64,000 nt of DNA, from assembly GCA_947441065.1 (NCBI GenBank), contig CANESI010000007.1:21040-85039 (forward strand), in the 5' to 3' direction. Origin of the DNA: Caulobacteraceae bacterium. Lineage in GTDB: Bacteria > Pseudomonadota > Alphaproteobacteria > Caulobacterales > Caulobacteraceae. Shown here piece by piece: positions 9,647 to 25,046 of this stretch (its first letter is position 1; every line of letters starts with the position of its first letter). The notes under the pieces were generated by a model. It saw nothing but the letters and a program-made list of their open reading frames with translations, did not search any database and had not been told where the DNA came from. Made by a program: the position numbers and the translations under genes.

Positions 9647-9786
9647 CGGCAAAACCAAGCGAATGGGTCTTTATTAGCTATTCAGACAGGGTGATCTACT
9701 CTGTTTTAGGCCCCGTCATTAACGCTTTGTCTTCTAATATTTTGATATAGAGTTGCTTCAGGTTCCTTTTCTCAAAGGACAGGGTC

Positions 9787-10341
9787 ATGTCGATCAATGC
9801 AGTGGGGACGGCGGGTCCCGCCTATATGCCGGTGGTGGCACCGCTGCCGGTGCGCCCAGCCCTGTCGATTGACGCCAACAACAGCCAGCGCCAGCCGCCG
9901 CTATCGCGCACTGAGAACCTAGCCCGCATGGAGTCGATGCTGGCCAATCAGATTCAGGCCGGAAGCTTAAATCAGAAACAGGCCAACGCCCTATCGACCT
10001 TCTTTGCCAGCCTCGCCACCCAGACCCAGATGGGCGGCGGCCCGAAAGAACTGTCCAGCGCTGAAATGATCCGTAAGGGTCTCGAGGCGGAGGAAGAGGG
10101 TGGCGAGGAAGAGGGCGCTGTCACCGGCACCGGCACCGAAACGGGGACGGTCCGGCGCAAGAAAACCAGAGCCTCACGCTCTCGCGCGGCCCTCAAGCCT
10201 GACCCGGTATTGAACGAGGCCTTGGCCCTTTTTGTTAAGAACCTGAAGGAGGCGCAGGAAAAGACCGCGATCTATGGGGCGTCGGCCCTGTCACGGTCGA
10301 TCGCGTCTAATGAGCCTATGGTTCTGGACGAAAACGCCTAA
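9787..10341 (+). CDS. Hypothetical protein, tandem orphan paralogue 1
   Basis: A 184-aa protein that I do not recognise. It starts MSINAVGTAGPAYMPVV after an AAGGACAGG ribosome-binding site. It has a helical block (ENLARMESMLANQIQAGSLN, about residues 45-80), an acidic and Gly/Thr-rich linker ending in a basic patch (RRKKTRASRSRAALK, about 130-145), and a C-terminal helix with FVKNLKEAQEKTAIYGA. There is no signal peptide and no membrane helix. The next gene has the same layout, start and C-terminal motif, so the two are a tandem duplication. The helical block superficially recalls EF-hand-like helix pairs, but I see no calcium loop. Confidence 0.75.
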   Translation: MSINAVGTAGPAYMPVVAPLPVRPALSIDANNSQRQPPLSRTENLARMESMLANQIQAGSLNQKQANALSTFFASLATQTQMGGGPKELSSAEMIRKGLEAEEEGGEEEGAVTGTGTETGTVRRKKTRASRSRAALKPDPVLNEALALFVKNLKEAQEKTAIYGASALSRSIASNEPMVLDENA

Positions 10342-10383: not shown

Positions 10384-10389
10384 GTATCA

Positions 10390-10404
10390 TTAACCTTTTA
10401 TTAA
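10390..10404 (+). promoter_or_regulatory. Perfect CtrA-box match (TTAA-N7-TTAA)
   Basis: TTAACCTTTTATTAA matches the Caulobacter CtrA consensus TTAA-N7-TTAA at all eight positions and continues into CCAT, giving an embedded TTAACCAT. It lies 88 bases before the start of the second orphan paralogue, a distance suitable for a box overlapping the -35 region of a promoter with a short leader. Binding is inferred from the motif only. Confidence 0.65.
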
Positions 10405-10492
10405 CCATAAAATTTAGGAACCCATTCAAGCCTCACTGTTAAGCTCTGGCTAAAGTAAGAGCCGGGGGGCGCTTGCCACCGAGGAGATGGTG

Positions 10493-11065
10493 ATGTCGAT
10501 CGCCGCGACCAGTTCGACCATGATGCAATATCTACCGGTCGTGCCGACCCTGCAGACCGCGCAGGTCGCTCGGCAAACGACGCCCGGGCTGTCGGTAGAC
10601 GGTGTCGCCCCACCGCCGCCGCCCAGAGGCGCGGATAATCGCCAAAAGGTGCAAGATCTTCTGTCCCAGCAGGTCGATGCGGGAACCATTAGCCAAGATC
10701 AGGCCACGCTCCTTTCGGACTTCTTTACCAAGGTTGCGGCCAAGGGCGGGCCCAATGGTGGCGGGCCCAATGGTGGCGGAATGGGCGCTGACGAAGGTCG
10801 CGATAGTGACAAGGGCCCCAAGGCTGACCGCGCGGGCGGAACAGAAGGGCCGGGGGCAGCCGGTCGGCGTCCTCCTCCGCCTCCACCACCGGCTGCTGCA
10901 GATGAGACGACCGCGTCCGACACCAGCGCAAGCTCTCCTTTGAAGGATGCGCTCGACGCCTTCTTGAAGGCCTTGAAAGACAATCAGACCAAGGCCACGG
11001 CCTATGGGGCTGCGGTTGCGGCACCGCCCAACAGCACCGCCCTGTTTGTCGACAAGCTGGTCTAG
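10493..11065 (+). CDS. Hypothetical protein, tandem orphan paralogue 2
   Basis: A 190-aa protein of unknown function, paralogous to the gene before it. The track starts at 10487, but the ribosome-binding site GAGGAG ends at 10486, which leaves no spacer there and a 6-base spacer for the ATG at 10493. That start also gives MSI, matching MSIN of paralogue 1. Shared parts are [20 protein letters not shown] against QIQAGSLNQKQANALSTFF, and a C-terminal [16 protein letters not shown] against VKNLKEAQEKTAIYGA. The linker is Gly/Pro/Asn-rich with a GGPNGG repeat and a polyproline run. The stop overlaps the convergent ubiG by 4 bases. A CtrA box lies upstream. Confidence 0.75.
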
Positions 11066-22370: not shown

Positions 22371-22405
22371 AAGACCGGTCATCGTCCCTGACCGGTCTTT
22401 TCTTT
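22371..22405 (+). terminator. Rho-independent terminator after DUF4167 gene
   Basis: A perfect 11-base stem AAGACCGGTCA / TGACCGGTCTT with a 7-base loop is followed by TTCTTT. It lies 37 bases after the DUF4167 stop. Its left arm and loop overlap the end of the convergent M23 peptidase gene, whose stop codon falls in the stem, so it may terminate both transcripts. Confidence 0.8.
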
Positions 22406-23749
22406 GTCAGGTTGGGATGGGTTCACCGAGGCAATGCGCGCGCCATTGCCCGACAGCATCTGGTCGATCCGATGTTTTTCGGCGCGGAAGGCGGCGAGGT
22501 TGCGACCAGAGAGGGCCGAGCCTTGCGGGATCTTCGCGCCCTTGGGGTTCAGCTTGGCCCCGTTGCGCATCACTTCGTAGTGCAGGTGCGGGCCAGTGGA
22601 TGCGCCGGTCGATCCGACATAGGCAATGACTTGGCCCTGACGCACGCGTGAGCCCGGGCGCAGTTTGGGCGACCAGCGGGACAGGTGGGCATAGGCGGTG
22701 GCCCAGCCGCCCGAATGCTGGATCTTGACCCAACGACCATAGCCGCCGTTCCAACGCACCTCTTTGACCACGCCGTCGCCGGCGGCGATCACGGGGGTGC
22801 CCGTACCGGCGCCGAAGTCTATGCCTTGGTGCATCCGGTTATAGCCCAGGATCGGATGGCGACGGACGCCAAAGCCCGAGGTCATGCGGGCCCCATCGAC
22901 GGGCGTGCGCAGCAGGAATCCTCTGATATTTTTGCCATTCTCATCGAAATATTGGGTCGGTGACTTGGCGTTTTCTTTGAAGCGATAGAAGCGGTTGGTG
23001 CCGCCATTGGCCTCGATCTCAGCATAGAGCAATTCGCCCGTCTCGACGGTACGGCCCGCTTCGGTCAGGGTGCGGTCAAAGACCATGCGGAAATTGTCAC
23101 CCGGTTGGATGTCGCGACTGAAATCCAGCTTGTGGCCGAACAGCTTGACGACCTGAGCGGTGAGGGCAGGGGTGGCCCCAGCCTGGGTGGCGCTTTCATA
23201 GAGCGAGCCCTGCATCTGGCCCTGAGCGACGGTGGTTTCAGACCGCAGTTTCTCTTCCAGTTCGCGCAGCTTGAGCGCGCCATCGAAGGTCCGCGAGAGG
23301 GTCAAGGCTGAGGCGGGGCCAGTGCGCATGGAGAGGCCGACCAGCCGCACGGGGCCGCGTTGGTCGCGCGGGCGAGCAATGGCGGCGTCAAAGGCAAGGC
23401 CTGCCTTGATATTGACCGTGTCGAAGGTTGAGCCAATGGCCTTGACCACTTCGCGCGCTTCGCTGTCGCTGACGCCTGCGCGGCGAACGGCGGCTTCGAA
23501 GGTCTCGCCCCGGCGAACCTCAACCGGGATATTTTCGGGGCGGCTATAGCCGGGTTGGGCTTCGGCCTGGGTGAAGGCCTCGTGCTGCAGTTCGCTCAGT
23601 TGCGCGGTTGCCTGTTGAACGGCCGCAGCGTTGCGGGTTTCAAAGGCGCTGAGCTGCCAAGCCAAGGCGAGGGCCGCCAAGCCAGCCACACCGACCACGA
23701 GCCGAGGGGCTAGCCGCACCGGGGTCCGTCTTGGATCGAATTCTATCAT
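22379..23749 (-). CDS. M23 family metallopeptidase (LytM domain), membrane-anchored
   Basis: A 456-aa envelope protein. It has one N-terminal membrane helix (LVVGVAGLAALALAWQLSAF), a middle region with an OapA/LysM-like segment (VEVRRGETFEAAVRRAGVSD), and a C-terminal LytM/M23 domain (about residues 300-410) with zinc-site motifs HQGIDFG and GPHLHYEV. With both motifs intact it is probably an active peptidoglycan DD-endopeptidase. The start at 23749 (MIEFDPRRTP) has a GGAGGGACG ribosome-binding site; the track start at 23842 reads through the promoter region. A perfect CtrA-box match lies 85 bases upstream, suggesting cell-cycle-timed expression. Confidence 0.87.
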   Translation of the reverse strand: MIEFDPRRTPVRLAPRLVVGVAGLAALALAWQLSAFETRNAAAVQQATAQLSELQHEAFTQAEAQPGYSRPENIPVEVRRGETFEAAVRRAGVSDSEAREVVKAIGSTFDTVNIKAGLAFDAAIARPRDQRGPVRLVGLSMRTGPASALTLSRTFDGALKLRELEEKLRSETTVAQGQMQGSLYESATQAGATPALTAQVVKLFGHKLDFSRDIQPGDNFRMVFDRTLTEAGRTVETGELLYAEIEANGGTNRFYRFKENAKSPTQYFDENGKNIRGFLLRTPVDGARMTSGFGVRRHPILGYNRMHQGIDFGAGTGTPVIAAGDGVVKEVRWNGGYGRWVKIQHSGGWATAYAHLSRWSPKLRPGSRVRQGQVIAYVGSTGASTGPHLHYEVMRNGAKLNPKGAKIPQGSALSGRNLAAFRAEKHRIDQMLSGNGARIASVNPSQPDKEKTGQGR

Positions 23750-23834
23750 CGTCCCTCCTTGCGCGGGTGCGCGGTGCTTGGATCGGTGACCGAACTGAAC
23801 TCCCCTAGGGCCGCTCTGCCGCTCTCCGCAGGCC

Positions 23835-23849
23835 TTAACCAAAGATTAA
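23835..23849. promoter_or_regulatory. Perfect CtrA-box match (TTAA-N7-TTAA) upstream of M23 peptidase
   Basis: TTAACCAAAGATTAA fits the CtrA consensus at all eight fixed positions. It is 85 bases upstream of the peptidase start codon, nearly the same distance as the box ahead of orphan paralogue 2. The consensus is palindromic in its fixed bases, so strand cannot be assigned from the box, but the only nearby start is that of the peptidase. Confidence 0.65.
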
Positions 23850-24047: not shown

Positions 24048-24749
24048 TTAGGCGGCGGAGACTTCGAGCATCTCGTTGGGATCGCGCAGGACATAGCCCC
24101 GGCCCCAGACCGTTTCGATATGGTGTTGGCCATTGGCTGCCGAGGCCAGCTTCTTGCGCAGCTTACAGATGAAGACATCGATGATCTTCAGTTCTGGCTC
24201 GTCCATGCCGCCATAGAGGTGGTTTAGGAACATTTCCTTGGTCAGGGTCGTGCCCTTGCGCAGGGAAAGCAGTTCCAGCATCTGATATTCTTTGCCGGTC
24301 AGGTGAACGCGCTGAGAGAAGACCTCGACGGTCTTGGCGTCCAGATTGACCGTAATTTCGCCGGTACGGATGACCGATTGGGCGTGGCCCTTGGAGCGAC
24401 GGACCACCGCATGGATGCGGGCGACCAGTTCATCCTTGTGGAAGGGCTTGGTCATATAGTCGTCGGCACCGCTGCCGAAGGTCTTGACCTTAGTATCGAT
24501 CTCCGAGGTGCCCGACAGGATCATGATCGGCGTGTTGATCTTCGCGACCCGAAGGGTGCGCAGAACGTCCATGCCGGACATATCGGGAAGGTTCAGATCG
24601 AGCAGGATCAGGTCGTAATCATAAATCTTGCCCAGATCGACGCCTTCTTCACCCAAATCGGTGGTGTAGACGTTGAAGCCCTCGGACTTGAGCATCAATT
24701 CGATGCTCTGCGCTGTCGCGCTGTCGTCCTCAATCAACAGTACGCGCAT
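24048..24749 (-). CDS. ctrA: Cell-cycle response regulator CtrA
   Basis: A 233-aa OmpR-type response regulator, master regulator of the alphaproteobacterial cell cycle. The receiver starts [18 protein letters not shown], with the phospho-acceptor D51 in [14 protein letters not shown] and the switch lysine in [10 protein letters not shown]. The winged-helix domain shows [19 protein letters not shown] and [11 protein letters not shown]. It ends in Ala-Ala, the ClpXP degradation signal known from Caulobacter CtrA. The start at 24749 is preceded by GGGGAGGGG; the longer track ORF adds promoter sequence. The gene is divergent from fliI, as in Caulobacter. Confidence 0.96.
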
Positions 24750-24814
24750 CGACCCCTCCCCGCCCAAAGGCGGCTTCGCTTCGCGGAATGATAAAATCCG
24801 CCCCCAGTAAACTC

Positions 24815-24980
24815 TTAACCATATTTGCCTGCCATTCACTTACACTTGGTTAACTTTGATTGACCGACCATTTGGTTCTAGGGTGATTTGCAAAGCCCGC
24901 GCAAGGGCTGCGTTAACCATTTTATTTATTGGAATCACAGACTTTTAATATCTGATGGGCTGGTGTTCACTCCCCTTTAA
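24815..24980. promoter_or_regulatory. ctrA-fliI regulatory region: GANTC site, TTAACCAT motifs, near-CtrA box
   Basis: The 297-base gap between ctrA and fliI has three kinds of site. A CcrM methylation site GAATC lies at 24932-24936, about 185 bases upstream of ctrA, like the methylation-sensitive P1 promoter of Caulobacter ctrA. Exact TTAACCAT octamers lie at 24815-24822 and 24913-24920, both on the plus strand. TTCA-N7-TTAA at 24966-24980 matches 7 of 8 positions of the CtrA box, 67 bases before fliI. A minus-strand TTAACC half-site lies near 24851. Together these suggest ctrA autoregulation and CtrA control of fliI. Confidence 0.6.
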
Positions 24981-25046
24981 GGTCAAGGGTAGAAAATCGA
25001 ACCGACGAAAAAATTTTTTTGTCGTTAAATTTTAGAGGACCATAAA

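Follow-up and report, generated by a model that had tools for sequence, protein, structure and literature searches.

The site at 10390-10404 of the window, the whole 64-kb stretch of DNA analyzed here, is well supported as a CtrA box by the spacing-specific enrichment of its motif, its intergenic setting, the occurrence of similar boxes next to classical targets of CtrA, the ctrA, chpT and sciP genes found in the genome, and its conservation in four genomes. The most probable consequence, which we put at about 75% from the sequence evidence, is that CtrA activates paralogue 2, the downstream gene of a duplicated pair, through a genuine box in its promoter. When activation is taken together with repression or mixed control, binding of CtrA at 10390-10404 appears highly probable. 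In the proposed mechanism, a CtrA~P dimer would bind the direct repeat TTAACC-N5-TTAACC over the -35 region and recruit RNA polymerase to the paralogue-2 promoter. Paralogue 2 would be transcribed at high CtrA~P (i.e., in predivisional cells, by analogy with the full boxes of C. crescentus), and paralogue 1 would be served by another promoter lacking a full box. Occupancy, activation rather than repression, the transcription start and the cell-cycle timing are what we infer. Paralogue 2 is predicted to be a new target of CtrA that is specific to this lineage; the regulon itself is well known, and this is no new kind of system.

The box and the promoter of paralogue 2

The features of the paralogue region are as follows.
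9719-9723, + strand: TTAAC half-site before paralogue 1
9787-10341, + strand: paralogue 1, 184 aa, no known domain
10389-10421, + strand: promoter core, conserved between the box and GGAwC, whose end may contain the -10 (four-genome alignment)
10390-10404, + strand: putative full CtrA box TTAA-N7-TTAA (sequence match, enrichment, conservation)
10439-10453, + strand: possible weaker second CtrA site, TTAAGCTCTGGCTAA, with one mismatch
10493-11065, + strand: paralogue 2, ~190 aa, no known domain

The two paralogues are co-directional, and the 151-base gap between them holds TTAACCTTTTATTAA on the + strand at 10390-10404, where all eight fixed consensus bases are matched. The box is directly followed by CC, which yields a perfect direct repeat TTAACC-N5-TTAACC (10390-10406), and TTAACCTTTTATTAAC (10390-10405) agrees with the extended consensus TTAA-N7-TTAAC. 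The initial annotation had described a perfect CtrA box 88 bases before paralogue 2, and this was borne out, with 88 bases between the intergenic box and the start codon ATG at 10493. An alternative in-frame ATG is possible at 10487, but the ATG at 10493 is favored because it is preceded by GAGGAG and because of the paralogue alignment. If the end of the conserved core corresponds to the -10 region, transcription would start near 10428 and the box would begin near -39. In C. crescentus, a full-box 5' end near -35/-39 accompanies activation (PMC4287350).

Both paralogues are present in three sister genomes, and the box lies at -103 from the ATG in all four genomes, including that of the window. 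The eight fixed bases are unchanged in all of them, and both variable columns fall within the spacer, whereas only 22 of the 47 columns upstream of the box show no variation. The conservation of the box corresponds to P = 0.002 by the upstream rate and P = 0.03 by the whole-region rate, which is moderate evidence because the four genomes are close. No full box precedes the homologue in two single-copy relatives within the genus, so CtrA control would not be old.

Other modes of control were considered for this promoter and rejected. Control by GANTC methylation was discarded because the paralogue-2 promoter is without GANTC, and control by SciP because the single GCGNC-type match, at 10468, lies downstream of the box and outside the usual -60 to -90 range. 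A sigma-54 promoter in the GC-rich leader GGGGCGCTTGCC misfits the -24/-12 pattern when judged by eye, and a simple consensus scan returned no ordinary sigma-70 promoter, a result that also weighs against the activation model.

The site shares its motif, spacing, intergenic place and probable -35 position with the full-motif TTAA-N7-TTAA promoters of C. crescentus (PMC4287350), and the genes for the regulator and the phosphorelay are present here as well. Unlike at those promoters, the target gene in the window is confined to a genus and the CtrA site is a predicted one. The CtrA consensus of Hyphomonas neptunium, TTAA-N7-TTAAC, was obtained by ChIP-seq from 222 sites, of which 211 were intergenic (PMC7200025). 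The sequence of the window site fits this extended consensus at every position.

Presumed CtrA circuit and boxes elsewhere in the genome

The window also contains the presumed regulator gene and one more box.
24048-24749, - strand: ctrA, presumed regulator gene, product 91% identical to CtrA of C. crescentus
23835-23849, - strand: the only other full TTAA-N7-TTAA box in the window, preceding an M23 peptidase gene

The ctrA gene is located 14 kb from the box upstream of paralogue 2, and genes for ChpT and for a SciP-type DUF1153 protein are also found in the genome. Directly downstream of ctrA lies the M23 peptidase gene (22379-23752, minus strand), and divergently upstream of ctrA lie two genes that we take, by sequence recognition, to be fliI and fliJ. 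Of note, the intergenic region between ctrA and fliI (24750-25046) has six TTAA half-sites plus a single GANTC but no perfect full box, a layout that resembles a self-regulated ctrA promoter.

The two TTAA-N7-TTAA matches in the 64-kb window compare with 0.05 expected from dinucleotide shuffles. A scan for chance frequency, as proposed with the initial annotation, was run, and it returned a spacing-specific excess of N7 in the contigs sampled. The intergenic statistics cover 1.03 Mb (eight large contigs, C1-C8) of the 2.92 Mb draft genome (G000), in which the window covers positions 21040-85039 of C7, with genes called by a simple hexamer-based caller and with 18 other spacings (2-6 and 8-20) as controls for N7. 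This sample holds eight N7 boxes, all of them intergenic, compared to a mean of 3.2 for the control spacings, of which 2.2 are intergenic (P ~0.002 for intergenic boxes). For TTAAC-N6-TTAAC, the form of the window site, six boxes were counted in the same 1.03 Mb, again all intergenic, compared to an average of 0.33 at other spacings (P ~1e-6). Across 60 genomes of the family, this form occurs 286 times versus 42 for the N8 control. The initial annotation would have been refuted by boxes occurring within genes as often as in intergenic DNA. This did not apply: all 12 TTAA-N7-TTAA boxes of the whole genome lie between genes or over a gene end and none lies inside a gene.

Two of the boxes are located between hemE and a Kinase-PPPase gene; in C. 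crescentus, the hemE and Kinase-PPPase genes flank the replication origin. Further boxes occupy the ftsA-ftsZ gap and the flgB-fliO gap, where ftsA and flgB are presumed identities by sequence recognition, and one lies upstream of a gene for a TPR/glycosyltransferase-41 protein. The hemE gene is a reported direct CtrA target (PMC11264516). A box of the TTAAC-N6-TTAAC form lies at L074:2081-2095 (G000 contig C40) between lepA and eipA (DUF1134), and in Brucella CtrA is reported to target eipA directly (PMC10787603). Together with the one ahead of the M23 peptidase gene, these boxes provide the strongest indication that CtrA probably reads the motif in this organism.

The boxes at gshB-comM, next to a TPR gene (C33), close to tRNA genes (C8) and at a tandem triplet (C52) lack an obvious CtrA-type neighbor. 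The triplet consists of three tandem paralogues with proteins starting MDAISSVS (L075:319-2959, G000 contig C52), one of which was compared with Pfam and NCBIfam and gave no match. One copy of this triplet has a perfect N7 box upstream, and a one-mismatch version is similarly placed before the next copy.

In an uncultured Caulobacteraceae lineage, the DNA sequence is enough to recognize part of the CtrA regulon (~eight sites of high confidence genome-wide), and this regulon appears to comprise lineage-specific, uncharacterized genes alongside the textbook ones.

Activation versus its alternatives and a possible regulatory split

Two alternatives bear on the box itself. It could have arisen by chance in AT-rich intergenic DNA on which CtrA does not act at all. 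The control spacings imply that ~2.2 of the eight intergenic N7 boxes in the sample are expected by chance, so that about a quarter of plain intergenic N7 boxes may be accidental, and the site was picked after scanning 64 kb. However, it has the TTAAC-N6-TTAAC form, for which the counts of 6 versus 0.33 leave an expected chance share of only ~5%, and its fixed bases do not vary among the four genomes; a chance match is very improbable. Alternatively, CtrA could bind but repress, or activate and repress at different times, in concert with the weaker downstream TTAA-N7-CTAA site. The TTAA of this second site, TTAAGCTCTGGCTAA, at -54 is kept in 4/4 genomes and the one-mismatch box in 2/4, and comparable arrangements are known from C. 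crescentus, where a consensus box together with a TTAA-N7-CTAA site leads to repression of hemE, and from pilA, where extra sites lower and delay expression (PMC11264516). Repression or mixed control nevertheless seems unlikely, as the main box lies where an activating site would be expected with respect to the likely -10 and the second site is degraded in the other two genomes.

It had also been proposed that no comparable box precedes paralogue 1 and that the duplicates may have split their regulation. The first point held, since all four genomes lack a box with at most one mismatch ahead of paralogue 1. The second was upheld in part: the full box before paralogue 2 and its absence before paralogue 1 apply to all four genomes, but a half-site before paralogue 1 and possible read-through blur the distinction. 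From the sequences, we consider the chances of a clean regulatory split to be evenly balanced. CtrA could act without any real split if paralogue 1 were also controlled, through its half-site, or if both genes shared one transcript to which the box adds a second promoter. Such an arrangement is compatible with activation of paralogue 2 through the box, and its likelihood is not to be added to those of the other alternatives; we regard it as a tentative possibility. The TTAAC half-site of paralogue 1 lies at -68 in three of the four genomes, and half-sites are functional in C. crescentus (PMC4287350). In addition, no terminator-like site was found on the + strand between the genes, so that read-through from paralogue 1 into paralogue 2 is possible. 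On the other hand, the half-site is lost in the fourth genome (L007), isolated TTAA sequences are frequent by chance in gaps of such length (the ~118 kb of intergenic DNA contains 379), and 151 bases separate the two genes.

Precedents exist for both arrangements. In Brevundimonas subvibrioides, pilA is duplicated and a CtrA site is located before only one copy (PMC11264516); the two cases are alike in being duplicates with one full box, whereas the products are pilins there and uncharacterized proteins here. In C. crescentus, a CtrA-type promoter lies inside the operon CCNA_00875-00877 (PMC4287350). A literature search on CtrA plus duplicates found nothing. Activation of paralogue 2 through its own box would make the pair a clean and testable example of one duplicate having gained or retained control by CtrA.

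Two further observations concern the region upstream of paralogue 1. The sequence CCTTTTCTCAAAGG at 9765-9778 could form a small hairpin (CCTTT/AAAGG) overlapping the ribosome-binding region, and it is kept in the sister genomes except for one loop base in L005. The single hit in a search for RNA elements, a group II intron match at 9723-9779 on the minus strand (RF02001, E 0.011), was below threshold and was rejected as probably due to chance.

Paralogue proteins and a distant family

The two paralogous proteins are 27-30% identical to each other. Among the four genomes, identity is 89-96% for paralogue 1 and 79-82% for paralogue 2, and the closest named relatives of paralogue 2 come from Caulobacteraceae MAGs. 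The pair is flanked by DUF1178 and ubiG genes. Two further species of the genus carry a single homologue in the same DUF1178-ubiG slot, and in several other genera DUF1178 and ubiG are adjacent with nothing in between. The tree has weak support and long branches and does not fix the date of the duplication.

Searches of Pfam, NCBIfam and PHROGs gave no convincing known domain for the paralogues, and the best hit in a PDB profile search had only E = 0.03. Structure prediction for paralogue 2 yielded a helical hairpin and one further helix, with low confidence elsewhere; the Pro/Gly-rich stretches that join the hairpin and the helix are probably disordered. An envelope or surface role around division would fit the regulon.

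The genes had been described as orphans. This is correct insofar as the pair is restricted to one genus, yet an alphaproteobacterial family of small proteins (L112-L118) is distantly homologous over the hairpin and the C-terminal part (hhalign, 99.3% probability). The family was first detected at E 4.9e-6, is carried by a minority of the genomes in another alphaproteobacterial order, and has no convincing Pfam or NCBIfam model. Most of its loci (at least L112, L113, L114 and L118) adjoin the gene of an OmpR-type response regulator, often together with a histidine kinase gene. In contrast, the window copies, located between DUF1178 and ubiG, have no adjacent regulator. CtrA itself is of OmpR type. 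It is conceivable, although rather unlikely, that the family, presumably under a dedicated OmpR-type pair elsewhere, lost this partner in the genus and was duplicated, and that one copy was captured by CtrA via a newly formed full box. If so, the family would constitute a new cell-cycle-timed envelope or surface component. The L112-L118 and window proteins have in common an MTSISS-like start, the AGTLT-DQA hairpin, a Pro/Gly-rich middle (GPPP-rich in L112-L118) and a Y...LFVD-like tail, and only the L112-L118 copies carry an extra N-terminal stretch that resembles the hairpin.
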